From assembly GCA_947175645.1 (NCBI GenBank), contig CAMWNP010000021.1, positions 1 through 51,132 on the forward strand: DNA of 51,132 nt, given 5' to 3'. Below are positions 12,428 to 26,572 of this stretch, piece by piece (positions within the stretch are counted from its first letter, which is position 1; each line of letters starts with the position of its first letter). This DNA comes from an uncultured Porphyromonadaceae bacterium (GTDB lineage Bacteria; Bacteroidota; Bacteroidia; Bacteroidales; Muribaculaceae). Both the position numbers and the translations under genes were made by a program. The notes beneath the pieces were generated by a model. The model was not told where the DNA came from. It searched no databases and saw only the letters and a program-made list of their open reading frames with translations.

Positions 12428-12811
12428 ATGAAAAGAAGTGTATTATTTTTGACTCTGGTGATAGTTGCCCTCTGTGCTTTCGCTACACCTCCCAATCTGT
12501 CATGTGAAACAATCTTCGGACGTAAGGATATCCGCAAGGAAGGTCATAAGGTGGTTTCCGTCACCGGTCCCGGCAATTATTATCGCAGTGTGTCGTCAGA
12601 CAATGATCCCCAACTCCGCGATGATATCATCAAACTTGTGGAGAAGGACAAAAAGCGTGCATTCAATGTTTATGAAACATACGAAAACGGGAAAGAAAAG
12701 GTTATTCTCAACATAAAGAACAATGAACAGGTCATTAATGTAGGGCTGACCTGGAATGAGGAAGGATACATTAATCTTTTCATTCAAGGTCCACCCGAAG
12801 CGTTCGAGTAA
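12428..12811 (+). CDS. Small secreted protein of the ECF operon
   Basis: A 127-residue protein with a signal peptide (MKRSVLFLTLVIVALCAFA, cleavage near 20). The rest is a mixed alpha/beta domain with YYRSVSSDNDPQLRDDIIKL and a C-terminal beta-rich part. It starts 2 nt after the anti-sigma stop. The layout resembles Bacteroidales ECF operons that carry small periplasmic proteins (DUF4252/DUF6108-like). I cannot assign the family firmly. A sensor or effector role in the envelope is inference. Confidence 0.7.
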   Translation: MKRSVLFLTLVIVALCAFATPPNLSCETIFGRKDIRKEGHKVVSVTGPGNYYRSVSSDNDPQLRDDIIKLVEKDKKRAFNVYETYENGKEKVILNIKNNEQVINVGLTWNEEGYINLFIQGPPEAFE

Positions 12812-12835
12812 TCTTTTGAAAATGAAAAATACTTA

Positions 12836-13244
12836 GACCCGGTTCCCCAATATTTGTTAATGCTGAGGACGCATATCACCGAGAGATTTTTGACTTGTGA
12901 TGAAGGAGCGTAGCCGTAGTTACGTGACTGAAGAACAAGGCAAAAAGCGCCGGTGAGATGCGGTGGTAAGGTAACTTTTTGCCACAGTACACAATTACAA
13001 GTGCCAAAGTTCGGTTATATGATTTTAATCATTTATAACATGTTAGGATAAATTGGGAAATAAATCCTTACATATCATTCTTCTTTCTTATCCGTGGCAT
13101 GAGTTACCATTGGCACGGCCAATCGTCATGCATCTGCGTCCGCTTGTTTCGGTCACAATGCAACCGCATTGCTCTCTCACTGCGCGAACACATCTGCATA
13201 ACGCTTGACCGCCTCAGTATTAACAAATATTGGGGAACCGGGTC
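12836..13244. mobile_element. 409-bp MITE-like element, copy 1
   Basis: The ends are near-perfect terminal inverted repeats of about 33 bp starting GACCCGGTTCCCCAATATTT. TTA lies immediately outside both ends (12833-12835 and 13245-13247), fitting a 3-bp target duplication. There is no transposase. Copy 2 at 21599 has exactly the same length and differs at about 15 positions. Inside, the two halves are diverged inverted copies of each other: each has GAGC, a short hairpin, GTGAC-N-GAA, then AGATGC and a GGTAACT...TGCCAC block. A TNA target would fit mobilisation by an IS5-group transposase; that is inference. Confidence 0.88.
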
Positions 13245-13657
13245 TTAGTCCGGCACTCGCCTTCACGGCGGGTGTTCTGGTTTCTGTATACTTCCTTGGC
13301 GTACCCTTTGAGAAGGAAAAAGATGCGGAAAGGTTCCTTACGGTTGAGTATAACGGCGTATGTACCGGAGGAATAACCGTTATTCCGGTTCACGGAAGCA
13401 CCACGGGGCAGAGTATAGCGGATTTTATCCGTCACACAATGTGTAAAGATTATGTGTATCTGAGCGGAGGAAGGATAACCACACTTTCGGGGGATTCGGT
13501 AGATATTTATATTAATGGGAAATCTGCAAAGTGCAGTGATCTCGGTCAAATCCCGGTTTGCAAAATCAGGAGTGTCTCTTTCACAACCCGTCAGTCAATC
13601 AATGGTATGCGTGGGAAGAGCAATGTAGTAAGTGTCGTTTTGAGAAAATCTTCGTGA
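13245..13657 (+). pseudogene. ECF-operon protein truncated at its 5' end by the MITE
   Basis: The frame encodes about 137 residues after the element: a hydrophobic start (ALAFTAGVLVSVYFLGV), a middle segment with SGDSVDIYINGKSAKCSDLG, and a terminal SNVVSVVLRKS. The last part resembles the plug-like domain of TonB-dependent proteins. The open frame runs back into the MITE end without an ATG; only a TTG in the element could start it. ATGAAAAATACT lies just left of the element, but rejoining the flanks at TTA puts that ATG out of frame. The gene is probably broken. Confidence 0.65.
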
Positions 13658-13705
13658 AACCCTCCAAATTTTTGATGAATAATTATGAAAGATTTTAGAA
13701 AGCAG

Positions 13706-13802
13706 TAAATTTGCGTATAATAATACATCTATTTGAAAAAGTGTTATATCTACACTTTAATAAGGATTTAAAGGCATCAGGCTTCGGCTAGAGATGCCTT
13801 TT
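13706..13802 (+). ncRNA. Candidate small RNA with its own promoter and terminator
   Basis: TAAATTTG (13706-13713) is a -7 box with no open frame after it. The following 85 nt contain a hairpin (AAAGTGT with ACACTTT, about 13738-13758), then a terminator stem AAAGGCATC (13770-13778) with GATGCCTTT (13793-13801) ending in T. No -33 element at the right distance is seen. The unit could instead be a leftover terminator of the broken ECF operon. Confidence 0.4.
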
Positions 13803-13935
13803 GTCATACTACAAAAATACTTATTCCGCAGTTTGCTTATAAATTTATAAATATACGGAAGATACCGCAGAAGGAAGCACTTTCAATATTTCTTCACACA
13901 AAAAAAACAGCATATTATAAATCCTGTCTTTTAAA

Positions 13936-13987
13936 ACACGCCCAACACCTCAACACGCCCAATTGTAGGACTGTAGGACACGCCCAA
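13936..13987. repeat. Three copies of ACACGCCCAA
   Basis: The decamer begins at 13936, 13953 and 13978 in a spacer that is otherwise very AT-rich. The third copy is just upstream of a TATCTTTG box at 13997-14004. A regulator-binding cluster is possible. Confidence 0.5.
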
Positions 13988-13996
13988 TTTGTAGAA

Positions 13997-14055
13997 TATC
14001 TTTGTTATAATAGGCAAATAATCCTTAGAATATAGGGGCTATTTGCCTAATTTTT
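13997..14055 (+). terminator. Promoter box followed directly by a terminator-like hairpin
   Basis: TATCTTTG (13997-14004) is followed by TAGGCAAATA (14011-14020), which pairs perfectly with TATTTGCCTA (14040-14049), then ATTTTT. A transcript from this box would begin at or near the hairpin and end at once. The hairpin could also insulate the gene at 14097 from transcription from the left. Confidence 0.45.
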
Positions 14056-14057
14056 CG

Positions 14058-14065
14058 TATCTTTG
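14058..14065 (+). promoter_or_regulatory. -7 box for the small membrane protein cluster
   Basis: TATCTTTG, 32 bp before ATG 14097, directly after the hairpin. It supports the choice of 14097 over earlier in-frame codons. Confidence 0.55.
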
Positions 14066-14096
14066 CAGGCAGATAACTTATGCTTCCCATGATAAT

Positions 14097-14450
14097 ATGA
14101 GAATTGAAATCACAAAGAAGCAGTTAATTGTTGCTGTAATAACGATAGCAGTGGTAGTCCTTAGTTTCATTGGGAACTATTTCTTCGGCTTTGATAAAGG
14201 CGTAGAATCTTCTGAAAATCCTAAAGGGGATGGCGAAAACTTCTATGTAGAAATGCGCCCTGAAGAAGTTAACAATAAATTTAGCACTAGGATAATTTAC
14301 CATTCTACATTGAACTGCCCTGAAATTAAAGCAGGCGTAGAATGTAATGATTTTGGGATTACTTATGATGCAAACGATGGCACAACAAAAGCATATCCTT
14401 ACTATTTATGCCACAAATGTATGGATAAGGATTTAATTGGAAAATTGTGA
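14097..14450 (+). CDS. Small membrane-anchored protein with a CxxC pair
   Basis: A 117-residue protein with one N-terminal membrane helix (about 11-30, IVAVITIAVVVLSFIGNYFF). The soluble part ends with HSTLNCPEIKAGVECNDF and YYLCHKCMDKDLIGKL. The Cys/His spacing suggests a small zinc-binding knuckle outside or under the membrane. Family not recognised. It begins a run of four AT-rich small genes in the same direction. Confidence 0.6.
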   Translation: MRIEITKKQLIVAVITIAVVVLSFIGNYFFGFDKGVESSENPKGDGENFYVEMRPEEVNNKFSTRIIYHSTLNCPEIKAGVECNDFGITYDANDGTTKAYPYYLCHKCMDKDLIGKL

Positions 14451-14495
14451 AATGCGGATTAGAAATGCCCTTGAATATACATTAAAGAAATAACT

Positions 14496-14717
14496 ATGGG
14501 ATTGGTATTCTACTTGATACTTTGCACATTAGTAACTGCTGCTATTTGGTATTTCTTTTGTGGTGGTGAAGAATCAGATAAAGGTGATGCAGCCAAAAGA
14601 GAAGGTGAAGGGAAAGAACCTGAAAAGGGTTTAGGTTCAGGCTGTATTACTTGCCTAATTATAGGATTCATTATGTCGTTATGTTATGTGGGCTGTTCTG
14701 TTTTAATGCCACATTAA
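14496..14717 (+). CDS. Small two-helix membrane protein
   Basis: A 73-residue protein with hydrophobic segments at about 3-22 and 49-70, joined by a charged Lys/Glu/Gly loop (EESDKGDAAKREGEGKEPEK). It contains several cysteines in or near the second helix. No family recognised. Placed 45 bp after the previous gene. Confidence 0.55.
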   Translation: MGLVFYLILCTLVTAAIWYFFCGGEESDKGDAAKREGEGKEPEKGLGSGCITCLIIGFIMSLCYVGCSVLMPH

Positions 14718-14796
14718 ATGGTTACAAAAATAAACTACTGGTTAGTAAAAAAGAAAATGTTTAATGTCGCTTCATAATAACTAAATCAAAATACAA

Positions 14797-15105
14797 ATGG
14801 ACAAAGCAATTAAAAAAGAAAAGGTATTTGAGACTATCATAGGGCTTCTGTTTTGCCTTCCTGCTGTGATAGGTGTTATTTGCTTTATAGTGAATCTTTG
14901 CACAGATGGGGATTCCTGCAAATTATGCAGCCTTAGAGGTCAGTGGGATTGGCAGTATGGCGGTGAAGGTGGTGGTGCTACACCCCCTATTCCTATTTAC
15001 TTCGGAATGATGGCTATAGCAGGTGCTTATATGCTGAAGAACAGTGTTCGCTATCTTTTCCTGAAAGAAGAAAAACCTGAAGAAACAAACAAAACAAACA
15101 ACTAA
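14797..15105 (+). CDS. Small membrane protein
   Basis: A 102-residue protein with membrane helices at about 12-34 and 68-88. A short loop holds CTDGDSCKLC and a Gly-rich stretch; the tail is Lys/Glu/Asn-rich. No family recognised. The next gene starts 5 nt after its stop, so the two are probably co-transcribed. Confidence 0.55.
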   Translation: MDKAIKKEKVFETIIGLLFCLPAVIGVICFIVNLCTDGDSCKLCSLRGQWDWQYGGEGGGATPPIPIYFGMMAIAGAYMLKNSVRYLFLKEEKPEETNKTNN

Positions 15106-15110
15106 AAACA

Positions 15111-15653
15111 ATGAAGAAGTTAATCTTACTACTGACAGTGTTCTTCACTTGCTTATGTGTGAAGGCACAGGAAACTACTACAGATTATATCTACAGTAGC
15201 GATGGCTTTGAAGTCAAAACTGGAGTCTATAACGGAGTAGAATACACTGGTTTATATTCTAAAGACGGTAAAACCTTTGTATCTGCTATTAAGCCCAGTT
15301 ATGAAAACAATTTCTATATTATAGATGGCTGTGAAACAATAGCAAGTGGCGCTTTTCAGTATGCATATGGAATTAACGTCTATTTCCCGTCAACTGTAAA
15401 ATCTATTGCCCCTGATGCGCTTACTACAAGAGTTATGTTATCTGGTAACAGTAAGCGTAATTTTTGGGGAGGCATTAAAGATGGCGTCAGAGAGCAAAGC
15501 GGTTCAGGTGCTGTAAATGCCCCTACTGCTGACCCTAATGCAACAGAGGTGGCTCGCTACAATGTTCAGGGGGTTAGACTTTCTGAACCTTCTGACGGCG
15601 TGAATATTGTGCAGATGTCAGACGGAACAGCACAGAAGGTTTTGGTAAGATAA
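15111..15653 (+). CDS. Secreted protein with a BspA-like leucine-rich repeat segment and a C-terminal tail
   Basis: A 180-residue protein. It has a signal peptide (MKKLILLLTVFFTCLCVKAQ). The middle region, with FYIIDGCETIASGAFQYAYG and VYFPSTVKSIAPDAL, looks like one or two BspA-type leucine-rich repeats. It ends with YNVQGVRLSEPSDGVNIVQM and a terminal KVLVR. That ending resembles the short beta-strand tails common on exported Bacteroidales proteins, also seen here at 29589 and 36629. Last gene of the AT-richer run. Confidence 0.7.
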   Translation: MKKLILLLTVFFTCLCVKAQETTTDYIYSSDGFEVKTGVYNGVEYTGLYSKDGKTFVSAIKPSYENNFYIIDGCETIASGAFQYAYGINVYFPSTVKSIAPDALTTRVMLSGNSKRNFWGGIKDGVREQSGSGAVNAPTADPNATEVARYNVQGVRLSEPSDGVNIVQMSDGTAQKVLVR

Positions 15654-15665
15654 GCTTACACCGAC

Positions 15666-15700
15666 AGAAACAACGACTAATCATTTGTTTCTATTGTTTA
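15666..15700 (+). terminator. Terminator-like hairpin after the secreted protein gene
   Basis: AGAAACAA (15666-15673) pairs with TTGTTTCT (15685-15692), followed by ATTGTTTATTG. The T run is weak. Confidence 0.5.
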
Positions 15701-15832
15701 TTGTTGGTTTCAGTATCAGGCAATACCTCTTGTGATGGGGGAACGTCAACAGAGTGATATTTTTCGACCGGGCTGGATGGCAGTCTGTCAGAAAATGATT
15801 GGGATGCGGGCGTGAAATTCCTTTTTTTTGAG

Positions 15833-15840
15833 TAAATTTG
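15833..15840 (+). promoter_or_regulatory. -7 box of the proCBA operon
   Basis: TAAATTTG, 30 bp before ATG 15871. The same GAGTAAATTTGCA string occurs in the yidC promoter. No clear -33 TTG. Confidence 0.6.
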
Positions 15841-15870
15841 CATTTGGAAAAGAGAAAAACTGCAAATTTT

Positions 15871-16641
15871 ATGAAAATTGGAATTATAGGGGCCGGTGCC
15901 ATGGGTGGCGCGGTTGCATCCGGACTGGTTGAATCCGGTATCAATCCCTCTGATATAACAATATCAAACCCTCATGTTGATAAACTTAAAGTGTTCGGGG
16001 ACAAGGGTTTGAATGTGACTGTTGATAATCTTGAGGTTTGCCGTGGCGCAGATCTGCTCTTTGTTGCGGTCAAGCCGTGGATACTTCCGGGAGTTGCAGA
16101 GGAGATAAGGAATGCCGTATGTGAAGCCGGAGCGGCAGTGTCAGTGATTGCTGCCGGTATAACAGGGGAAGATCTTCTTCGCTGGTTCGATTGCGGCGGA
16201 AAGGTTCCCGTATTATCACTTTCAATGCCGAATACGGCCGTAAAGTGCGGTCAGTCAATGACTTTTGTGGTGCCGGTTACCGGAGATGAGAATAATCCCG
16301 ATGTGGAACTTTACCGTAGACTCGGTGACGTGAGTGTGATTGAGGAGCGTCTGCTTCCGGCCGCCACTTCACTTGCGTCATGTGGCATAGCCTACGCGCT
16401 GCGTTATATCAGAGCGGCAACGGAGGGAGGTGTCCAACTGGGATTCCGTGCTTCTGAGGCACAGCGTATTGTGGCTCAGACCGTGAAGGGAGCGGCGGCA
16501 CTGCTGGAAGATGGAGCGCATGCCGAGGCTGAGATTGACAAGGTGACCACACCGGGTGGACTGACGATCCGCGGCCTCAATGCCATGGAACAGTCAGGAT
16601 TTACCGCCGCAGTTGTTAACGGATTGATAAACAGCAAGTAA
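15871..16641 (+). CDS. proC: Pyrroline-5-carboxylate reductase
   Basis: A 256-residue enzyme for the last step of proline synthesis, reducing P5C with NAD(P)H. The Rossmann motif GIIGAGAMGGAVASGL is at 4-19, and the C-terminal signature with VTTPGGLTIRGLNAMEQSG is near the end. Start 15871 follows the promoter; the open frame's earlier TTG at 15838 lies within it. The TAA overlaps the ATG of proB by one base. Confidence 0.96.
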   Translation: MKIGIIGAGAMGGAVASGLVESGINPSDITISNPHVDKLKVFGDKGLNVTVDNLEVCRGADLLFVAVKPWILPGVAEEIRNAVCEAGAAVSVIAAGITGEDLLRWFDCGGKVPVLSLSMPNTAVKCGQSMTFVVPVTGDENNPDVELYRRLGDVSVIEERLLPAATSLASCGIAYALRYIRAATEGGVQLGFRASEAQRIVAQTVKGAAALLEDGAHAEAEIDKVTTPGGLTIRGLNAMEQSGFTAAVVNGLINSK

Positions 16642-17711
16642 TGGCAAGAATAGTGGTAAAGATAGGGAGCAATGTGCTGACCCGCCATGACGGAAAGCCG
16701 AATGTCACCAACATGTCGGCCATTGTCGATCAGGTGGCACATCTGCGTGAAGCGGGTCACGAACTGATCCTCGTTTCCAGCGGTGCAGTGGCATGCGGGC
16801 GAGGAGCGGTAACACCCTCACGCACGCTTGACAGCGTGGCTGCCCGCCAACTCTTTTCGTCTGTTGGACAGATCAGACTCATCAATATCTACAATGACCT
16901 GTTCGCACAGTATGGCATTGTGGTAGGACAGGTGCTCACCCAGAAGGAGAACTTCTCATCACGGACCTCCTATCTGAATCAGCGGGGCTGCATGCTGACG
17001 ATGCTTGAGAACGGTGTCATTCCCATTGTCAATGAGAACGATACGGCAAGTCTCACTGAACTGATGTTCACTGATAATGATGAATTATCGGGGATGATAG
17101 CCACCATGATGGATGCAGACCTGCTCGTGATTCTCTCCAATGTTGACGGCATATACACCGGCAGTCCCTCGGATCCCGGTTCCCGACTTATAGAGCGGGT
17201 AAGTCCGGGTGAGGATGTGAGCGGCAATGTCGTAGCCTCCAAGAGCGGCTTCGGCCGGGGAGGAATGGGCACGAAATGCGGAATTGCCTCGAAAGTCAGC
17301 GAGGAAGGAGTGACGGTCAAGATAGCGAAGGGTGACCGGAGAAATGTTCTGGTAGACTTGATAGAGAATCCCGGGGCTGTTCCGCACACCACTTTCGAGG
17401 CAAGGGGAGAGGCCCTGAGCACGGTAAAGCGCTGGATAGCCCATTCGTCATCCTTTGCCAAGGGGCGTATAGTGGTTGATGACAATGCGGAAAAGGTGCT
17501 TCGCGGAGACAGTGCCGTATCGTTGCTGCCTATAGGAGTTCTCAGCGCCGAAGGTGACTGGGAGGAAGGAGAAATCGTAAATATTTTTGACAGAGAGGGT
17601 AGGCTTATAGGTGTTGGAAAGGCATCGCTCGGCGGTGACGCCACTCGTGCCGCCATTGGTCAGCGAGGCGGACGGCCTGTTGTGCATTATGACTATCTAT
17701 ACATTGAATAA
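16641..17711 (+). CDS. proB: Glutamate 5-kinase
   Basis: A 356-residue enzyme for the first step of proline synthesis (glutamate to glutamyl 5-phosphate). An amino-acid kinase domain (VVKIGSNVLT, LVSSGAVACG, NENDTAS, FGRGGMGTK) is followed by a C-terminal PUA domain, which in other bacteria is tied to proline feedback. It overlaps proC by 1 nt, and proA begins 1 nt after its stop. Confidence 0.96.
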   Translation: MARIVVKIGSNVLTRHDGKPNVTNMSAIVDQVAHLREAGHELILVSSGAVACGRGAVTPSRTLDSVAARQLFSSVGQIRLINIYNDLFAQYGIVVGQVLTQKENFSSRTSYLNQRGCMLTMLENGVIPIVNENDTASLTELMFTDNDELSGMIATMMDADLLVILSNVDGIYTGSPSDPGSRLIERVSPGEDVSGNVVASKSGFGRGGMGTKCGIASKVSEEGVTVKIAKGDRRNVLVDLIENPGAVPHTTFEARGEALSTVKRWIAHSSSFAKGRIVVDDNAEKVLRGDSAVSLLPIGVLSAEGDWEEGEIVNIFDREGRLIGVGKASLGGDATRAAIGQRGGRPVVHYDYLYIE

Positions 17712-17712
17712 G

Positions 17713-18960
17713 ATGAACTATACAGATCTTTTCACAAAGGTGAAAAAAGCATCGGCGGGAATTTCACTGCTTGATGACAATAAAAGAAACAGCGTAATCC
17801 TACGGCTTGCCGATCTGCTTTCCGATAGTACGGAGAAATTATTGGAGGCCAACCGTAAGGACCTCGACCGGATGAGTCCGGAGAATCCCCTTTATGATCG
17901 TTTGAAACTAACGCCTGAAAGAATAGCCGGGATAGCATCGGATCTCCGTCACGTGGCCACACTTCCATCGCCATTAGGTGAGGAGATTGAGCGCCGCACC
18001 CTGCCCAACGGAATCCTTTTGCGAAGGATTAGAGTGCCGTTCGGTGTCATTGGTGTGATCTATGAGGCACGGCCTAATGTGACGTTCGATGTGTTCTCGC
18101 TATGCTTCAAGAGCGGAAATGCGTGTGTCCTTAAAGGGGGACGAGATGCCGAGAATTCCAATGAGGCGGCTATGGAAATCATTCATCGGGCACTGACGGA
18201 GGAGCAAGTGTCAACAGATGTGGCGTTGCTGCTGCCGTCGACCCATGAAGCAACCGCAGCCATGCTGGGTGCTGTGGGCTATGTGGATGTGTGCATACCG
18301 CGTGGCGGTCGTAAACTGATTGATTTCGTGCGGGATAACGCACGTGTTCCGGTGATAGAGACAGGCGCCGGGGTGGTACATCTGTATTTTGCCAAGGATG
18401 GCGACCTTGAGATGGGGAAACGTGTAATAGAAAATGCAAAGACAAGGAGAGTCAGCGTATGCAACGCCCTCGACACACTGCTGATTGAACGTTCACGCCT
18501 TGCCGACCTTCCTGAACTTCTTGCTCCGCTTGCCGCTAAAAATGTGGAACTTCATGCCGATGAACGTGCCCTGGAGGCATTGAACGGTAAGTATCCTGCG
18601 GAACTGCTGACGGGTGCTGATGATGAGACCTGGGATAAGGAGTGGATGGACTACAAGATGGGAGTACGTGTGGTAGACTCATTTGAAGACGCCGTGGCAC
18701 ACATAGCAGCGCATGGGTCAGGTCACAGCGAGAGCATCGTGACGTCAGATGAAGCCGAAGCGGTGGCTTTCCAGGCTATGGTAGATGCCGCATGTGTCTA
18801 TGTTAACCTTCCCACAAGTTTCACTGACGGCGCACAGTTCGGACTCGGTGCGGAAATAGGCATATCCACCCAGAAACTTGGTCCGCGCGGGCCTATGGGG
18901 CTTAAAGAGATGACCACGTACCGCTATTTGCTTTCAGGCGACGGACAAGTCAGACCGTAG
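17713..18960 (+). CDS. proA: Glutamate-5-semialdehyde dehydrogenase (gamma-glutamyl phosphate reductase)
   Basis: A 415-residue aldehyde-dehydrogenase-fold enzyme that reduces glutamyl 5-phosphate. It has the conserved VIYEARPNVTFD and KGGRDAENSN segments and the catalytic Cys in RRVSVCNALDTLL. ATG 17713 is chosen because the open frame to its left is only the out-of-frame tail of proB. Together proC-proB-proA cover the whole route from glutamate to proline. Confidence 0.96.
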   Translation: MNYTDLFTKVKKASAGISLLDDNKRNSVILRLADLLSDSTEKLLEANRKDLDRMSPENPLYDRLKLTPERIAGIASDLRHVATLPSPLGEEIERRTLPNGILLRRIRVPFGVIGVIYEARPNVTFDVFSLCFKSGNACVLKGGRDAENSNEAAMEIIHRALTEEQVSTDVALLLPSTHEATAAMLGAVGYVDVCIPRGGRKLIDFVRDNARVPVIETGAGVVHLYFAKDGDLEMGKRVIENAKTRRVSVCNALDTLLIERSRLADLPELLAPLAAKNVELHADERALEALNGKYPAELLTGADDETWDKEWMDYKMGVRVVDSFEDAVAHIAAHGSGHSESIVTSDEAEAVAFQAMVDAACVYVNLPTSFTDGAQFGLGAEIGISTQKLGPRGPMGLKEMTTYRYLLSGDGQVRP

Positions 18961-19011
18961 CGAAACTGTTTGAAACTGTTGCGTGCGGCATCTGTTTTTC
19001 CGTCAAGAGTC

Positions 19012-19042
19012 TTGCATATTCTTAATTATTTGAGTAAATTTG
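19012..19042 (+). promoter_or_regulatory. yidC promoter
   Basis: TTG at 19012-19014, a 20-nt spacer, and TAAATTTG at 19035-19042. The leader to the ATG at 19164 is about 115 nt and contains no open frame or obvious hairpin. Confidence 0.8.
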
Positions 19043-19163
19043 CAAGCAGATTGCAGCGGCTTCGGAAAGGAATCAGCGGGGTTGCAGCATGATGCCTGTA
19101 GTAATCTGATTATTAACCAATTATAAAATAGCACCAGGTGTAAGCCGGTGTAAAACTCACATT

Positions 19164-21248
19164 ATGAATAAAAATACCCTTATAGGTATGCTTCTGATGG
19201 CTGCCCTGATTTTCGGTTTCATGTGGCTCCGCACTCCTTCCGCCGAGGAGATAGCCGCAAAAAAGGCTGAACAGGAGCAGGCAGAACTCGCCCAACGTGA
19301 ACTGGCTGAAAGAGAGGCCCGCGAAGCAATGACTGCCGATACTCTTTCCTCCGCGGAAATCGCATCCGTTATCCCCACAGTGAAACAAGTGGGTATTGCA
19401 GACTCCACCGGGACAATCAGTTACAAGGTCAACGGCGTGAATCTGAGCCTCTCAGGTGACAATGTCACCGGTAGTGTAGCCGCAGGCGATACAGTTATAT
19501 CTTACGCTCAACTTTCAAAGAATGACTTCAGCGGTCTCACCATTGTTCAGAGCAAGGCAGCCGTTGCAAATCTGCGTGACGCAATCAATAATGCCTCACG
19601 TTTCCAGACGTTCGCCCGTTATCTCAACGGTGATGAGAAGGTTGTAACTCTGCAGAATGACCTTATAAGTGTGGATTTCTCCACCAAGGGTGCGCAGATT
19701 GCACGTGCCACACTCAAGGATTACATCAATTATCTCTCACCGGATTCTGCTAATGTAGTTGCGTTTGGCCCTTATTCCCACTTCAACTTCGCGTTCACTT
19801 CGTCAACCCAACGTTTTGAAACCGACAGTTTCTTCTTCGAGCCCGTCATTGAAAACGATTCAACGGTGCTTATGAAACTTGACCTGGGTAAAGGATCGGA
19901 GTGGGGAATACGTTACACCCTTCCTGCCGGCAGTTATGTTCTCTCCATGGAGGTGGTTCAGAAAAACATGCAGGAGATTGTGCCTCCTAGCGTTGCGACA
20001 ATAGATTTCAATGTGGACCAGACTCTGGCCCGCAATGAGGAAGGTCGCACGTTCGAGCAGCGTAACAGTGCTCTGTTCTACAAATTCGTCGGTGACTCTC
20101 CTGATGACCTGTCAGCACAGGGTGAGGATGAGGAATCGCTCAATCAGAGCATCAAGTGGATTGCGTTCAAGAACCAGTTCTTCTCAACAATCTTCATACC
20201 GCGCACAAGTTTCTCAACCGCCAAGGTTCAGTCGAAGGCACTTGACAAAGACCCGTATTATGTGAAATACATGAAAGCGGAAACCACCCTTGACTATTCA
20301 TCGGCAAGCGAACAGCCGGTGGCGATGGATATCTTCATCGGGCCGAACCTTTACCCTCTGCTTTCAGATCTTGACGATACGCTTTCTCCCGACGAGAGTC
20401 TTGACCTGACGCGCGTGATTCCCCTCGGATGGTCCATTTTCCGCTGGATCAGCACCCTTATCATCATTCCGGTGTTCACATTCCTGAACGGTTTCATAAC
20501 CAACTACGGTCTGATCATCTTCCTTCTGACAATCTTTATAAAGATTATTCTCTTCCCCTTCACCTACAAGAGTTTCATGTCACAGGCGAAGATGCGAGTG
20601 CTCCAGCCTGAAATCAAGGCTATAAACGAGAAGTATCCCGGCCAGGAAAACGCCATGACCCGCCAGCAGAAGACCATGGAACTATACAGCCGCGCCGGAG
20701 CAAGTCCTTTCTCAGGATGTCTTCCCATGATTCTCCAGATGCCTATTCTGGTTGCCATGTTCTGGTTCTTCCCCTCATGTATTGAACTTCGTGGTGAATC
20801 ATTCCTGTGGGCACACAACCTTGCCGCACCTGACTATATTCTCACCCTTCCGTTCACCATACCCTGGTATGGGAACCATGTGTCGTTGTTCTGCTTGATG
20901 ATGACCGTGGTCAACGTGATATACACGCGCATCAACATGCAGAATCAGCCCGGAGGTGATACAATGCCGGGTATGAAGTGGATGATGTATCTGATGCCTG
21001 TCATGTTCCTTTTCTTCTTTAACGACTATGCGTCAGGATTGAGTTACTATTACTTCCTGTCGCTGCTTATCACCATCATTCAGACATGGATTTTCCGCAA
21101 GTGTATCAATCAGGACAAAGTACGTCAGAAGATGATGGAAAATGCAAAGAAGCCCCGTAAGAAAAGCGGACTTCTGGCACGTCTTGAGGAAGCACAGCGT
21201 CAGCAGCAGGCTGCCATGCGTGAGATGCAGAAAGGGAAAAAACGTTAA
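19164..21248 (+). CDS. yidC: Membrane protein insertase YidC
   Basis: A 694-residue Bacteroidetes-type YidC that inserts and folds inner-membrane proteins with or without Sec. The N-terminal signal-anchor helix (about 5-20) is followed by an Ala/Glu-rich linker and a large periplasmic beta domain (to about 400). The conserved C-terminal membrane core follows, with ISTLIIIPVFTFLNGFITNY, LFPFTYKSFMSQAKMRVLQP and FSGCLPMILQMPILVAMFWF. The basic C-terminal tail (KKPRKKSG and EMQKGKKR) is suited to ribosome contact. Single gene with its own promoter and terminator. Confidence 0.97.
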   Translation: MNKNTLIGMLLMAALIFGFMWLRTPSAEEIAAKKAEQEQAELAQRELAEREAREAMTADTLSSAEIASVIPTVKQVGIADSTGTISYKVNGVNLSLSGDNVTGSVAAGDTVISYAQLSKNDFSGLTIVQSKAAVANLRDAINNASRFQTFARYLNGDEKVVTLQNDLISVDFSTKGAQIARATLKDYINYLSPDSANVVAFGPYSHFNFAFTSSTQRFETDSFFFEPVIENDSTVLMKLDLGKGSEWGIRYTLPAGSYVLSMEVVQKNMQEIVPPSVATIDFNVDQTLARNEEGRTFEQRNSALFYKFVGDSPDDLSAQGEDEESLNQSIKWIAFKNQFFSTIFIPRTSFSTAKVQSKALDKDPYYVKYMKAETTLDYSSASEQPVAMDIFIGPNLYPLLSDLDDTLSPDESLDLTRVIPLGWSIFRWISTLIIIPVFTFLNGFITNYGLIIFLLTIFIKIILFPFTYKSFMSQAKMRVLQPEIKAINEKYPGQENAMTRQQKTMELYSRAGASPFSGCLPMILQMPILVAMFWFFPSCIELRGESFLWAHNLAAPDYILTLPFTIPWYGNHVSLFCLMMTVVNVIYTRINMQNQPGGDTMPGMKWMMYLMPVMFLFFFNDYASGLSYYYFLSLLITIIQTWIFRKCINQDKVRQKMMENAKKPRKKSGLLARLEEAQRQQQAAMREMQKGKKR

Positions 21249-21274
21249 CATTATCTTCCAATTTTTATTTTTCA

Positions 21275-21312
21275 GGAGGGTGCGGATTAAAAAGTCGCAC
21301 TCTCCTTTTTTT
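21275..21312 (+). terminator. yidC terminator
   Basis: GGAGGGTGCG (21275-21284) pairs with CGCACTCTCC (21296-21305), allowing one G-U pair, followed by seven T. Confidence 0.9.
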
Positions 21313-21340
21313 ACATCTTTTTCAGAGGAACAGAGGAGGA

Positions 21341-21450
21341 GTGTCATTATAAATATCCGTGTGGATGTTTCGTAATTCGGCTTCGGTCACAGGCTACTGA
21401 GGTATGCTCTAAGCCCCTTGCATCTGACTTATTCTGACATACCCTCAGAG
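21341..21450 (-). repeat. Terminator-associated dispersed repeat, copy B
   Basis: It begins with GTGTCATTATAA and contains AATTCGGCTTCGGTCACA, GGTATGCTC, TTGCATCTGACTTATTCTGA and ACCCTCAGAG in the same order as copy D. Strand is given by the core, which reads GAGCATACC...GTGACCGAAGCC on the minus strand. The spacing is nearly that of copy D, with substitutions. It lies between the yidC terminator and the second 409-bp element. Confidence 0.75.
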
Positions 21451-21598
21451 ATCTTATTTACGGGGTTGAGGGGCAGTTATCTTTTTATTTTCTTTGTGAA
21501 TCCCGGTCATTTACGAGAGGGAAGTTTGTTATGCCCGGACCACTTATGAGGCATACGCCGTGGATGGAGATAGATCATAATAGGATGTCAGTGGTTTA

Positions 21599-22007
21599 GA
21601 CCCGGTTCCCCAATATTTGTTAATACTGAGGACGCATATCGCCGAGAGATTTTTGGTTTGTGATGAATGAGCGTAGCCGTAGTTACGTGACTGAAGAACA
21701 AGGCAAAAAGCGCCGGTGAGATGCGGTGGTAAGGTAACTTTTTGCCACAGTACACAATTACAAGTGCCAAAATTCGGTTATATGAATTTAATCATTTGCA
21801 ACATGTCAGGATAAATTGGGATATAAATCCTTACATATCATTATTCTTACTTATCCGTGGCATGAGTTACCATTGGAACGGCCAATCGGCATGCATCTGC
21901 GTCCGCTTGTTTCGGTCACAATGCAACCGCATTGCTCTCTCACTGCGCGAACACATCTGCATAACGCTTGACCGCCTCAGTATTAACAAATATTGGGGAA
22001 CCGGGTC
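21599..22007. mobile_element. 409-bp MITE-like element, copy 2
   Basis: Same orientation and same length as copy 1, about 96% identical by eye. Its terminal inverted repeats are perfect for at least 33 bp (copy 1 has one mismatch), and TTA flanks both ends (21596-21598 and 22008-22010). It has no coding capacity: only short frames with no resemblance to proteins. It is inserted in a gene-free spacer. Confidence 0.88.
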
Positions 22008-22139
22008 TTAAATTGAAGCGGACGGGAGTGTGGAATACCAGGTGACCTGATGGCAAATCATTTCTACGGGATTTTTGTTGGATTTATCAGTCTTCGCCTA
22101 TGTAATTCACTGTTCCATAATGTATAAAATGATGATATA

Positions 22140-22700: not shown

Positions 22701-22726
22701 GGATATAATGCAGTAGAAATTTTTTG

Positions 22727-22756
22727 CAAATATATCACAAAAATTATATAATGCAA
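22727..22756 (-). promoter_or_regulatory. Promoter of the second DUF805 gene
   Basis: On the minus strand TTG (22756-22754), a 19-nt spacer and TATATTTG (22734-22727). The leader is about 20 nt. Confidence 0.75.
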
Positions 22757-22839
22757 AATTTTTTGAAATTTTTGATGCAGTTTTTTTCAAGGATGGTAAT
22801 TTTTGCCGTGGCAGTGATGAAAAAGATAATAACTTTTCG

Positions 22840-22847
22840 TAAATTTG
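22840..22847 (+). promoter_or_regulatory. -7 box of the purL promoter
   Basis: TAAATTTG, 27 bp before ATG 22874. It excludes the longer open frame that starts at 22724. No clear -33 TTG. Confidence 0.6.
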
Positions 22848-22873
22848 CAGTCATAATCAATATTATCATTACT

Positions 22874-25800
22874 ATGGTTACATTTTTTAAGTACGGACAA
22901 AACACCGTATATGCGGTTGAATCGGTCCGGAAACTCACAGAAGGTGAAAAAGAGAGATTGACATGGTTGTTCGACGGCGCCAAGCCTCTTTCATCAACCT
23001 CCCTGAAGGGTCAGTTCATTGGTCCGCGTAAGGAGATGGTGACACCATGGAGTACGAACGCCGTGGAGATTACCCGAAATATGGGAATCGATTCAATTTC
23101 ACGAATTGAGGAATTCAACAGAGTGACCGCTGAAAAACCACAGTATGACAAAATGCTCAGCCGGCTCTACGACGGACTGAACAGCAAACTGTTCTCCACT
23201 GACATTATCCCCGGCAAGATTGAGCATATCACCGATATCAGACAATATAACAGAGAGGCCGGACTTGCACTTAGCCCCGATGAAGAGGACTATCTTGAGA
23301 AACTAAGTGAGAAACTCGGACGACCGCTGACTGACAGCGAGGTGTTCGGATTCTCTCAGGTTAACTCAGAGCATTGCCGTCACAAGATTTTCAACGGTCA
23401 GTTCATCATTGACGGTGAAGAGAAGCCGATGACTCTTTTCAAACTGATCAAGCGCACATCACAGGAGAATCCGGGCGGACTGGTGTCAGCATATAAGGAT
23501 AATGTGGCCTTTATTAAAGGTCCGGTCGTGGAGCAGTTCGCTCCCCGCAATCCACAGGGTCCCGATTACTTCGAGGTGAAGGATCTGCGCACTGTTCTCT
23601 CGCTAAAGGCGGAGACACATAATTTCCCCACAACGGTTGAACCGTTCAACGGAGCCGCTACGGGCACTGGTGGTGAGATACGCGACCGTCTGGGTGGCGG
23701 TAAGGCGTCGCTGCCGCTTGCGGGAACAGCCGTCTACATGACATCATACGCACGTCTTGATCCCATGCGCCGCTGGGAAATGATCAGCAATCCGCGCGTT
23801 TGGCTTTATCAGACCCCTGCGGAAATTCTCATCAAGGCGTCAAATGGCGCGAGTGACTTCGGCAACAAGTTCGGTCAGCCTCTGATATGCGGGTCACTTC
23901 TCACTTTCGAGCATGACGAGAATAATCAACTCTATGCCTACGATAAGGTTATCATGCTTGCCGGAGGTGTTGGTTTCGCTGCCGCAAAGGATGCCATCAA
24001 GGGTGTGCCGGAGCCGGGTCAGGAAGTCATAGTGATGGGTGGCGACAACTACCGTATCGGTATGGGTGGCGGCGCTGTATCGTCAGTTGCTACCGGAGAG
24101 TATGGCAACTCCATAGAATTAAATGCGGTTCAGCGTGCGAACCCGGAGATGCAGAAACGTGTGTCGAACGTTATCCGTGCGCTGGCGGAGTCAGACAATA
24201 ACCCTATCGTTTCAATACATGACCACGGGGCCGGCGGTCACCTCAATGCGCTTTCGGAACTTGTGGAGGCAACCGGCGGAACAATCTATCTTGACAAACT
24301 TCCCGTTGGGGATGCCACTCTTTCCGCTAAAGAAATTATAGGAAATGAGAGTCAGGAACGCATGGGTATGGTCATGAACGCCAAGGATGTTGAGCGCGTA
24401 AAGGCTATTGCTGACCGTGAGCGTGCTCCCTTCTATGAGGTCGGTGTCACCACCGGCGACGGTAAATTCGTTTTTGAGGCGGAAAAAGGGGAGAATCCGA
24501 TTGACCTTGAAATGGATGATATGTTCGGAAACTCTCCCCGGACGGTGATGCGTGATCACACGGTTATCAGGGAGTCAGAAAATATAGATACCGAAAAGGT
24601 TGATATCGCTCAGGCAGTTGCCGATGTGCTTTCACTCGAAGCCGTAGCCTGCAAGGACTGGCTTACAAATAAAGTTGACCGTTCAGTGACCGGTAAGGTG
24701 GCCCGTCAGCAGTGTCAGGGAGAGATTCAGTTGCCCCTGAGCGACTGCGGAGTTATGGCACTTGATTACACGGGCAAAGCCGGTATCGCAACATCCATCG
24801 GTCATGCTCCTCAGGCTGCTTTGGGTGATGCTGCGAAAGGTTCGGTTCTTGCCATAGCGGAATCCCTTACCAACATAGTGGGTGCACCGCTCAAGAAAGG
24901 TCTGTCGGCGGTGTCACTGAGTGCGAACTGGATGTGGCCCTGCAAGAATGAGGGTGAGGATGCCGCGCTTTATCGCGCGGTGGAGGCATGCTCTGATTTT
25001 GCCGTGGCATTGGGAATAAACATCCCTACCGGAAAGGACAGTCTGTCAATGACTCAGAAATACTCGTCAGGTCAAAAGGTTATGGCTCCCGGCACCGTGA
25101 TTATCTCTGCCGCCGGTGAGGTGACGGATGTCAAGAAAGTTGTGTCACCTGTGCTCCAGAACATCCCCTCCATATTATATTACATAGATTTCTCAGGAGA
25201 TACGCTCCGCCTTGGTGGGTCTGCTCTTTCCCAGACAATGGGAAAGGTGGGTGATGACGTGCCAACAGTTAAGGATCCGGCCCGTTTCGTGGCTACTTTC
25301 AATGCCATCAACAAACTTGTGGGACGCAAGGCCATCGCTGCAATGCACGATGTTTCAGCCGGCGGTCTGGTTACTACTCTCCTCGAAATGCTCTTCGCCA
25401 ACGAAAAGGGAGGTTTGCACGTGGCACTGGACGGATTCTCGGAAGCAGACAATGTAAAGGCGCTCTTCGCTGAGAACCCCGGTCTGGTAATACAGGTTTC
25501 CAACACTTGCAAAAACATGGTGGAAGAGGCTCTGAACGCTGCCGAAGTCCGCTATTTCGGCCTGGGTACTCCCATTGCCGACCGTACACTCCGCATTGAA
25601 AACAAGGGTGCTGAAGTGGCGCATCTTGATGTCGACGCCCTCCGCGATGTATGGTATAAGCCCTCATATCTGCTTGATACCCTGCAGAGTGGCGAGAGTG
25701 CGGCTGCCGAACGTTTTGCAAACTACAAGAAACAGCCCATCCGCTACCGGTTCCCCGCCGATTGGAAGGGTACGTTTGAGTCGCTGGGTATTGATTCCGG

Positions 25801-26572
25801 ACGCCGTACCCCTTCAGGAGTCAAGGCTGCCATCATACGAGAAAAAGGTGTCAACGGTGACCGTGAGATGGCATATTCACTTTATCTCGCCGGCTTCGAT
25901 GTCAAGGATGTTCACATGACTGACCTTATGACCGGACGGGAGACCCTTGAGGATGTCAACATGATTGTTTTCTGCGGAGGATTTTCAAACAGTGACGTGC
26001 TCGGATCTGCCAAAGGTTGGGCATCGGGCTTCCGCTGGAACGAGAAGGCACGCACATCACTTGAAAGATTCTTCAGCCGGAAGGATACGCTGTCGTTAGG
26101 TATATGCAACGGCTGCCAACTTATGATCGAACTCAATCTCATCGCTCCTGAAAAAGAGAAGAGGGTGAAGATGCTTCACAACAAGTCGCATAAGTTTGAA
26201 TCCTCTTTCCTGGGACTCACTATCCCCGCTAATAACTCAGTGATGCTCGGATCTCTGGCGGGTTCAAAACTGGGTATATGGGTGGCTCACGGTGAAGGCC
26301 AGTTCTATCTTCCCGAGGCTCTGGGTGAATATAATATCGCGGCCCGTTACAGTTACAACGGCTATCCGGGTAATCCCAACGGTTCCCGTGGTGCGGTTGC
26401 CGCTCTTGCAAGCAAGGATGGCCGCCACCTGGCAATGATGCCTCACCTTGAACGCGCCATATTCCCCTGGCAGTGTGGTTACTGGCCACGTTCACGCCGC
26501 AACAATCAGGTCACTCCCTGGATCAAGGCGTTTGTGAACGCCCGTCAGTGGATAGAGAACATCAAGGGTTGA
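22874..26572 (+). CDS. purL: Phosphoribosylformylglycinamidine synthase, single-chain type
   Basis: A 1232-residue enzyme of purine synthesis (FGAR + glutamine + ATP to FGAM). The N-terminal linker and two AIRS-like synthetase halves show NSEHCRHKIF, KAETHNFPTTVEPF, ATGTGGEIRD and DHGAGGHLNA. The C-terminal class I amidotransferase domain has LGICNGCQ with the nucleophile Cys, and MPHLERA containing the catalytic His. ATG 22874 is the first start after the promoter, and the protein then begins MVTFFKYGQ, as expected for the Bacteroidetes form. Single gene, followed by repeat copy C and its terminator. Confidence 0.96.
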   Translation: MVTFFKYGQNTVYAVESVRKLTEGEKERLTWLFDGAKPLSSTSLKGQFIGPRKEMVTPWSTNAVEITRNMGIDSISRIEEFNRVTAEKPQYDKMLSRLYDGLNSKLFSTDIIPGKIEHITDIRQYNREAGLALSPDEEDYLEKLSEKLGRPLTDSEVFGFSQVNSEHCRHKIFNGQFIIDGEEKPMTLFKLIKRTSQENPGGLVSAYKDNVAFIKGPVVEQFAPRNPQGPDYFEVKDLRTVLSLKAETHNFPTTVEPFNGAATGTGGEIRDRLGGGKASLPLAGTAVYMTSYARLDPMRRWEMISNPRVWLYQTPAEILIKASNGASDFGNKFGQPLICGSLLTFEHDENNQLYAYDKVIMLAGGVGFAAAKDAIKGVPEPGQEVIVMGGDNYRIGMGGGAVSSVATGEYGNSIELNAVQRANPEMQKRVSNVIRALAESDNNPIVSIHDHGAGGHLNALSELVEATGGTIYLDKLPVGDATLSAKEIIGNESQERMGMVMNAKDVERVKAIADRERAPFYEVGVTTGDGKFVFEAEKGENPIDLEMDDMFGNSPRTVMRDHTVIRESENIDTEKVDIAQAVADVLSLEAVACKDWLTNKVDRSVTGKVARQQCQGEIQLPLSDCGVMALDYTGKAGIATSIGHAPQAALGDAAKGSVLAIAESLTNIVGAPLKKGLSAVSLSANWMWPCKNEGEDAALYRAVEACSDFAVALGINIPTGKDSLSMTQKYSSGQKVMAPGTVIISAAGEVTDVKKVVSPVLQNIPSILYYIDFSGDTLRLGGSALSQTMGKVGDDVPTVKDPARFVATFNAINKLVGRKAIAAMHDVSAGGLVTTLLEMLFANEKGGLHVALDGFSEADNVKALFAENPGLVIQVSNTCKNMVEEALNAAEVRYFGLGTPIADRTLRIENKGAEVAHLDVDALRDVWYKPSYLLDTLQSGESAAAERFANYKKQPIRYRFPADWKGTFESLGIDSGRRTPSGVKAAIIREKGVNGDREMAYSLYLAGFDVKDVHMTDLMTGRETLEDVNMIVFCGGFSNSDVLGSAKGWASGFRWNEKARTSLERFFSRKDTLSLGICNGCQLMIELNLIAPEKEKRVKMLHNKSHKFESSFLGLTIPANNSVMLGSLAGSKLGIWVAHGEGQFYLPEALGEYNIAARYSYNGYPGNPNGSRGAVAALASKDGRHLAMMPHLERAIFPWQCGYWPRSRRNNQVTPWIKAFVNARQWIENIKG

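Follow-up and report, generated by a model that had tools for sequence, protein, structure and literature searches.

Insertion sequences (IS) commonly give rise to miniature inverted-repeat transposable elements (MITEs), and what the interiors of these derivatives do is mostly unexplained. Here we describe a 409-bp element that occurs twice in a 51,132-nucleotide stretch of DNA (the window; positions 1 to 51,132 of contig CAMWNP010000021.1, assembly GCA_947175645.1) from an uncultured Porphyromonadaceae bacterium of the GTDB family Muribaculaceae. Among the closest described systems, two belong to other classes of mobile element, since IS200 has a different class of transposase from IS5, and IS110 relies on another recombinase class and has no terminal inverted repeats. 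According to the passages cited here, the 5' leader of Salmonella IS200 tnpA forms a hairpin of about 100 nt near the start of the transposase transcript, in which a stem-loop hides the ribosome-binding site, making it a known fold that limits transposase expression (PMC12594629), and the bridge RNA of IS110 is a structured RNA produced from the non-coding ends of the IS (PMC11208160). The cited work also describes the Correia/NEMIS elements of Neisseria as MITEs with long RNA stem-loops that act on transcripts via RNase III (PMC10969869, PMC2229807), the Caulobacter CIR repeats as small mobile elements whose RNA consists of two arms and a linker, properties conserved in Caulobacter and Brucella (PMC2229807), and BrickBuilt and other MITEs of Porphyromonas gingivalis as Bacteroidales elements with IS5-family terminal repeats (PMC4596501).

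Our analyses indicate that the 409-bp elements are almost certainly MITEs, namely internal-deletion derivatives of an IS5-type IS whose two ends each carry a homologous, inward-reading hairpin of about 95 nt, hereafter called an arm. They resemble IS5-family IS (NF033580, transpos_IS5_3) and their MITEs in the DDE transposase, the TNA target duplication and the repeats common to deletion derivatives, whereas the IS5_3-like elements of about 870-906 bp that were examined are without the paired structured arms found here. As far as the descriptions cited above go, the CIR repeats differ in their hosts and in an exposed GANTC methylation motif, where the present element shows tandem G.A pairs at the core and derives from an IS with a recognised transposase; Correia/NEMIS elements are cut at their terminal repeats, whereas here each end has an internal hairpin; the IS200 leader has no counterpart to the second, mirrored hairpin at the far end; and in the P. 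gingivalis MITEs stem-loops are predicted from 23-nt tandem repeats, with other terminal repeats and irregular duplications (PMC4596501). In contrast to IS110, the present element combines an IS5 DDE transposase with terminal repeats of 33-35 bp, and our data gave no evidence of guide loops or of an RNA cofactor. Open-access titles and abstract openings contained no description of the element or its arm; ISfinder, preprints and subscription papers lay outside this scope, so the IS may already be named.

The two copies (Table 1) are present as originally predicted, being identical in length, bounded by inverted repeats of about 33 bp (97% identical in copy 1), directly preceded and followed by TTA, and devoid of a transposase gene. 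They share 96% identity over 409 bp, and when compared together with 600-bp flanks they matched only over query positions 598-1012 of 1609, the element occupying 601-1009, i.e. over the element and a few adjoining bases. Because the flanks are unrelated, a segmental duplication, the alternative that the original prediction had named, is ruled out as the origin of the two copies. Chance is ruled out as well. The proposed mobility is supported by relatives at unrelated sites with TNA duplications. In the 3.17-Mb host genome the terminal repeat occurs 48 times (up to 3 mismatches; 0 for a reversed-pattern control). Contig C9, distinct from that of the window, bears a third 409-bp copy, and there are numerous relatives of smaller or greater length. 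When 23 bases of the repeat were searched for without mismatches in 84,980 genomes, one from each species, the result was 61 stretches from 8 assemblies, titled uncultured Bacteroidales or Porphyromonadaceae, Muribaculaceae, Duncaniella and Bacteroides metagenome-assembled genomes, and the 409-bp sequence itself matched in 100 of 298 genomes sampled from the host's family (E up to 0.001). The exact repeat was found in no viral contig, and a distant-mode search for carriage by plasmids and phages gave no match.

Longer IS copies with the same terminal repeats, for which the original prediction had suggested a search, do exist (within 1-2 mismatches) and have one or both arms. The locus L206 (1078 bp, with TAA) has a 287-aa open frame, measured stop to stop, that matches transposase models but is without the right arm; L207 (1180 bp, with TTA) has both arms and a transposase frame in 4 pieces; and L209 (1060 bp, truncated where its contig ends) has its frame in 2 pieces, so that both arms and an unbroken frame come together in none of the three. 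The frames of L206, L209 and of L264, a 1112-bp IS with related ends, all match NF033580 IS5 with 133.6-171.2 bits (cut-off 110) and Pfam PF01609 and PF13340 above cut-offs; no solved structure for the transposase was found by sequence search. An intermediate size is provided by L089 (861 bp, TGA on both sides), in which the same two ends surround a shortened frame with PF13340 above and PF01609 below cut-off. From these comparisons we identify the parent as an IS5-type IS (NCBIfam NF033580, about 1.1-1.3 kb), of which the 409-bp form keeps both ends and has lost the transposase gene, and the two diverged inverted halves noted at the outset are real and correspond to the parent's two ends. The two-ended relatives have 57 different lengths over 67 distinct insertion sites and therefore reflect mostly separate deletions rather than one amplified MITE.

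At these 67 sites the 3-bp flanks are identical in 48 cases, all of them TNA (28 TTA, 18 TAA, 1 TGA and 1 TCA), compared with 3 of 67 sites at which the 3 bp adjoining them on the outside agree, and TNA stands on both sides at 63. We take this target duplication to be that of the IS1031-type subgroup of IS5 elements. At 11 of the 19 sites without identical flanks, TTA on one side faces TAA on the other, which may reflect recombination between copies or, in part of them, a 2-bp TA duplication. Within the host genome, element matches lie within about 330 bp of a contig end on contigs C11, C12, C16, C19, C24, C26, C28 and C57; with several contigs ending in or near elements, the assembly has probably collapsed further, perhaps full-length, copies.

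Table 1. Coordinates of the element copies and their parts in the window, and of single-arm elements at other loci (given as locus:positions). R1 and R2 are the left-arm and right-arm models.
Feature	Position	Strand	Remark
Element copy 1	12836..13244	+	about 226 bp from the left end and 183 bp from the right end of the parent IS
Element copy 2	21599..22007	+	409 bp; transposase gene missing as in copy 1
TTA target duplication, left of copy 1	12833..12835		
TTA target duplication, right of copy 1	13245..13247		
TTA target duplication, left of copy 2	21596..21598		
TTA target duplication, right of copy 2	22008..22010		
Left terminal inverted repeat, copy 1	12836..12868	+	
Right terminal inverted repeat, copy 1	13212..13244	-	
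Left terminal inverted repeat, copy 2	21599..21631	+	
Right terminal inverted repeat, copy 2	21975..22007	-	
Left (transposase-proximal) arm, copy 1	12870..12964	+	long imperfect hairpin with tandem G.A core
Right (distal) arm, copy 1	13116..13211	-	structured hairpin
Left arm, copy 2	21633..21727	+	R1 match 21625-21732 + (training set)
Right arm, copy 2	21879..21974	-	R2 match 21874-21981 -
Approximate transposase-deletion junction, copy 1	13061..13062		from comparison with L089; matches ending 226-228 or starting 227
A/T-rich palindrome GTTATA...TATAAC	13014..13039		between left arm and lost transposase start; read by eye
Single-arm element ends GAAACTGTTTAAA	L256-L259		
Single-arm element ends GAGATTGTCTAA	L253, L268, L301		
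Single-arm element ends GAGGGTGTTTAATAAC...	L281		
Single-arm element ends GAGCTTGTTTAATAAT...	L301		
Single-arm element ends TAAGTAACTG...	L275, L284, L287		variant in L278
Single-arm mini-elements	L256:717-877, L257:655-815, L258:661-821, L259:623-783		
Single-arm mini-elements	L281:1473-1668, L301:585-744 and 1619-1779		

Read inward, each end forms its hairpin from near position 34. The left arm is built from the stems CGCAT/ATGCG, TCxCCG/CGGxGA, TTTTTG/CAAAAA and CTTGT/ACAAG with the tip CGTAGC/GCTACG, and the right arm, on the minus strand, from CGGTCAA/TTGGCCG, CGTTATGCA/TGCATGACG, GTTCGC/GCGGAC and CAATGC/GCATTG. The motif order that the original prediction had given for the two halves is indeed common to both by reading, and the short hairpin it had seen is present, as the tip of this much longer hairpin conserved by compensatory change. 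In copy 1 the left arm matches R1 at 12862-12969 on the plus strand (E=1.6e-29) and the right arm matches R2 at 13111-13218 on the minus strand (E=6.9e-28), both arms being in the training sets, and they fold with z=-7.5 and z=-7.7, respectively; the whole 409-bp element folded as single-stranded DNA reaches z = -11.3. Among arms less than 96.5% identical (score threshold 90, no N; L097 on the left and L233 and L111 on the right dropped as recombinant or truncated), 95.9% of cells are paired in 44 left arms and 97.1% in 41 right arms. Sliding the partners by 1-3 columns lowers pairing to at most 57.2% and 43.2%, respectively. Cells changed on both sides number 55 in left arms compared with 14.6 after shuffling, and 28 in right arms compared with 8.0 (each reached by 0 of 500 shuffles), the covariation score of left arms is 0.186 compared with 0.078 (0 of 500), and pairs with change on both sides number 7 in right arms compared with 3.8 (2 of 500). 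Across 34 diverse arms from alignment A4 (11 of its 45 rows left out), 27 of 28 pairs changed on both sides.

Between the lower stem and the tip lies a core of successive tandem G.A pairs, GA-AG-GA-GC facing GU-GA-CU-GA. The tandem G.A next to the tip (GA/GA) is kept in all 34 diverse arms and the following one in 31, and inclusion of L308:1183-1290, which was left out of this set, gives 34 and 31 of 35. In alignment A3 (36 rows counted; 9 of 45 left out, of which 8 were complementary-strand matches and 1 was gapped), 35 or 36 rows retain each of the four letters closest to the tip, the variant-core arm of L269 included. A kink-turn or box C/D reading of GTGATGA...CTGA was considered and rejected, the letters being better explained by successive tandem G.A pairs in a continuous helix. 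A known RNA family was likewise rejected: the whole window had no match in Rfam 15 at gathering score, and for L001 and L089 there were 3 sub-threshold matches (up to E=5), none of them inside the element, which leaves the arm as a candidate family without a match in Rfam 15. At L308:1183-1290 the core has a perfect palindrome instead of its 3' half, an appearance that copying of one half onto the other would give. In one lineage (L238, L215, L237 and L239) the tip hairpin, CGATGG...CCATCG, is nearly identical in the two arms, elements elsewhere having different left and right tips, which hints at exchange between arms or at a shared binding factor.

The two strands of an arm are not equivalent. 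Left arms contain 51 G-T cells compared with 10 A-C cells, and right arms 150 (of 1148 cells) compared with 10; reconstructed changes away from Watson-Crick pairs led to G-T 53 times and to A-C 18 times (26:9 on the left, 27:9 on the right). In all 12 arms selected for folding, both energy and z-score favour the inward strand over its complement, and a core reading outward near an end was seen in 1 of 48 elements longer than 300 bp. The excess of G-T over A-C together with the better folding of the inward strand argues that selection acts on one strand, the one running inward from each end. Subterminal binding sites are common in transposons, and the arms might accordingly be palindromic double-stranded sites for the transposase or a host protein, with folding as a by-product. 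However, stem sequences diverge strongly between lineages while pairing persists, palindromic DNA predicts G-T and A-C mismatches in equal numbers, unlike the changes just given, and the near-invariant letters of the core are not palindromic, so that we regard binding sites of this kind as most improbable. Folding of a single strand is, on the other hand, very probably the selected property of the arms.

The original prediction that the element was built by inverted duplication of an older unit holds as far as the duplication itself is concerned, with the refinement that it did not arise in the 409-bp form, which inherited it from the parent IS. R1 detects the right arm of copy 1 (minus strand, E=1.8e-7) and R2 the left arm (E=4e-7); however, each model also matches the complement of its own arm with about 27-44 bits, similar to the cross-matches, which are therefore not clean by themselves, and the homology of the arms accordingly rests on the shared unpaired core and on the tree. 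Full-span IS with diverged arms and repeats of 34-35 bp were found in L264 (1112 bp), L304 (1283 bp), L305 (1119 bp), L314 (1126 bp) and L316 (1261 bp), and L315 (1149 bp) has the first 13 bp matching. All six have the hairpin at both ends; the transposase match is in a single piece in L304, L314, L315 and L316, and the frames of L264 and L305 look damaged. In the arm tree (A4 with 10 of 45 rows left out), ten elements are oriented by their transposase frame (L089, L207, L264, L304, L305, L307, L308, L314, L315 and L316), and 18 of 18 of their arms group by side, proximal with proximal and distal with distal, with clade supports of 0.93-0.97, compared with 0.95-0.98 in the A3 tree (11 of 45 rows left out); for the other labelled elements, similarity served to assign the sides, which hence provide no independent test. 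Since arms group by side across IS lineages, the inverted duplication is old and predates the split of several of these lineages. The side labels are crossed in L301, whose two arms belong to small elements beside another IS.

The same hairpin also stands on other terminal repeats. Single-arm elements of 160-196 bp with 12- to 34-bp repeats have other ends than the 409-bp element (Table 1), and 10 of the 25 single arms searched lie between repeats with identical TNA flanks, a duplication count biased by a repeat finder that rewarded identical flanks. A 322-bp two-armed element in genome G015 has the ends GAGCTTGTTTAATAAT... with TNA, and several single-arm ends match or nearly match armless IS5 elements of about 870-906 bp (L302, AGAAACTGTTTAAA; L300 and L303, AGAGGGTGTTTCATAAC). 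Among 20 further IS5-like loci, R1 arm matches occurred in 8 (18 rows, E up to 0.05, 4 on the complementary strand) and in none of the other 12. The arm thus seems to have been captured more than once by mini-elements. It could still be that the arms hitchhike with the ends as inert remnants of an ancient inverted duplication, in agreement with the existence of armless derivatives and with the fact that a deletion between two ends keeps end sequences by default; compensatory change, strand asymmetry, a near-invariant core over deep divergence and the presence of the same module on different terminal repeats make this very improbable. In a sample of 248 genomes from the host's family, R1 matched 140, covering 20 of 30 genera, with at most 15 candidates scored per genome, so that per-genome counts are lower bounds. 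Scans of the order and the phylum, run with stricter filters by which weak matches are lost, gave matches in 6 of 295 genomes and 1 of 296, the latter being the host itself. Three of the six belong to the host's family; of the others, G473 folds with a variant core GGCAC/GTAAC, G500 has the core on the strand opposite the reported match, and G581 has it only in part. Together, these data point to the arm as a candidate structured module, previously undescribed within the literature covered, that travels with IS5-type transposons in gut bacteria. At L261:327-764, three arm hairpins (one on the plus and two on the minus strand) lie within 440 bp, perhaps a compound of small elements.

As for what the arms do, the explanation that we lean towards as a whole is that of MITEs of an IS5-type IS whose arms act as folded single strands and buffer incoming transcription. 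The arms probably work as RNA rather than as single-stranded DNA, such a role being in keeping with the strand, with the G-U pairs that are tolerated and with the mirrored layout, and it is more tentatively that we suggest a buffering of the element against transcription from outside. Regardless of the orientation of the insertion, a transcript entering from either flank would first encounter an arm, and would do so in the functional strand of that arm; the fold would then buffer against outside-driven expression of the transposase or against transcription running through the ends, and derivatives would retain the arm because the fold raises their own success. A stronger version, in which the arm is a structured RNA module that moves between IS5-type lineages, is transcribed and forms part of the machinery or regulation of the element, with tiny one-arm elements on other terminal repeats exploiting it, is quite unlikely; if true, both ends of a DDE transposon would bear a folded RNA. 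An inward Bacteroidales promoter read by eye in the terminal repeat was rejected, the near-match AATATTTG being absent from the ends of L264, L304, L314 and L316.

Several observations weigh against the favoured explanation. Reconstructed changes to other mismatches number 46 (27 left, 19 right); pairs with change on both sides in left arms are not significant (7 compared with 5.0, reached by 65 of 500 shuffles); A3 and A4 were fitted to the model; identity between left and right arms is modest (39-56%, from A3 without the rows left out of its tree); and the gapped alignment of the left and right consensus is only mildly unusual, being reached by 65 of 5000 pair-preserving shuffles. The arms are not strictly required either, as 48 of the 67 elements have both, 14 have one and 5 have none, leaving 19 without one or both. 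A 314-bp form without the right arm stands at two sites, with TTA on both sides of each, from which it follows that the right arm is not indispensable, and in the related IS5 elements of about 870-906 bp the upstream stretch from repeat to frame is no longer than 117 bp and no arm match was obtained. The one-armed form and these armless relatives also speak against a second role, in which the arms would act as DNA, as hairpins or cruciforms or at a single-stranded stage, and help the transposase to find or pair the ends; armless copies do so too, though single ones may have lost their arms after insertion. Such a role would explain why arms occur at both ends, mirrored, and why those examined lie in elements with IS5-type terminal repeats, mostly with TNA duplications. 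It is also in agreement with the retention of both arms, which is more frequent than uniform deletion predicts: with each size entered once per lineage, arms scored as retained in the null model if 120 bp of the end remained, and the 1078-, 1117- and 1180-bp elements left out, both were kept in 42 of 58 size classes compared with 25.0 expected for uniform breakpoints, in a set biased by the many loci fetched by long matches, and in 11 of 21 compared with 6.8 (P=0.018) in the less biased subset, drawn from the host genome and from the search for exact terminal repeats. Tandem G.A pairs are stable not only in RNA but also in DNA. On the other hand, the frequent G-T pairs of the right arms are easier for RNA than for DNA, and the G.A core stands on one strand per arm only, so that the two ends would use opposite strands; we therefore consider a role as DNA rather unlikely.

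The surroundings of the elements bear on this choice as well. Among 16 single-arm elements (L261, L301, L270, L271, L290 and L293 left out; bounds of L260 set by hand, since no repeat was found for it), 8 have the upstream gene on their functional strand and 11 have a downstream gene that faces them, by crude gene calls. These proportions do not favour an action on neighbouring mRNAs and in this respect count against the favoured explanation, and the lack of a clear orientation is what a role as DNA would predict if neighbours were irrelevant. No U-run like that of an ordinary terminator follows directly after the hairpins, five T standing 14 nt beyond the left arm, which is a further point against that explanation. 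Both results also argue against the hairpin serving mainly the host transcript, by ending it, stabilising it or being cut out of the mRNA in the manner of REP or Correia elements, and so making insertions tolerable, since the single-arm elements show no strand preference relative to their upstream neighbours. At 6 of 14 sites in the host genome, a predicted frame to the left of the element either overlaps it or stops no more than 10 bp away, as a role in host transcripts would lead one to expect, but TAA targets favour stop codons and qualify this count, for which the gene calls are crude too. Correia elements are cut by RNase III in transcripts, as far as the cited passages describe them (PMC10969869, PMC2229807), and provide a precedent; overall, we judge a role mainly in host transcripts to be unlikely. 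Whichever of these roles the arms have, a conserved structure on one strand, mirrored, older than several IS lineages and present on several terminal repeats is a testable object, and the arm model, the core motif and the many natural mutants offer a route to asking whether transposon ends work via RNA or via single-stranded DNA structure.

Some copies are embedded in more complex arrangements. At L023:1466-1632 and L025 near 1476-1624 (contigs C2 and C10 of the host genome) copies are rearranged, with a second terminal repeat placed within another copy or at its end, the pattern expected from nested insertion or inversion. At L227:280-4494, a right arm and a left arm stand 4.2 kb apart and enclose two transposase-like genes of another type and one further gene; a cargo transposon was considered here and left, as the two long frames look by eye like other transposases, and nested insertions are the probable origin.

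Within the window, copy 1 starts 24 bp past a 127-aa frame (12428-12811) with a weak DUF5024 match below cut-off; of the open reading frames (ORFs) of at least 80 aa, only two flanking ones reach into this copy, with their ends. Copy 2 has yidC (19164-21248) on one side and a gene for phosphoribosylformylglycinamidine synthase (22724-26572) on the other, both named from Pfam domains, and the only ORF of at least 80 aa mainly inside it is a TTG-start frame of 89 aa. No alignable empty site was found in 60 relatives, in which the sequence around copy 1 produced a single match of 74 bp and 76% identity and that around copy 2 aligned mainly in the last 250 bp of the upstream yidC. The A/T-rich palindrome listed for copy 1 in Table 1 recurs, with changes, in copy 2 and in L089, and may be an operator or promoter element.

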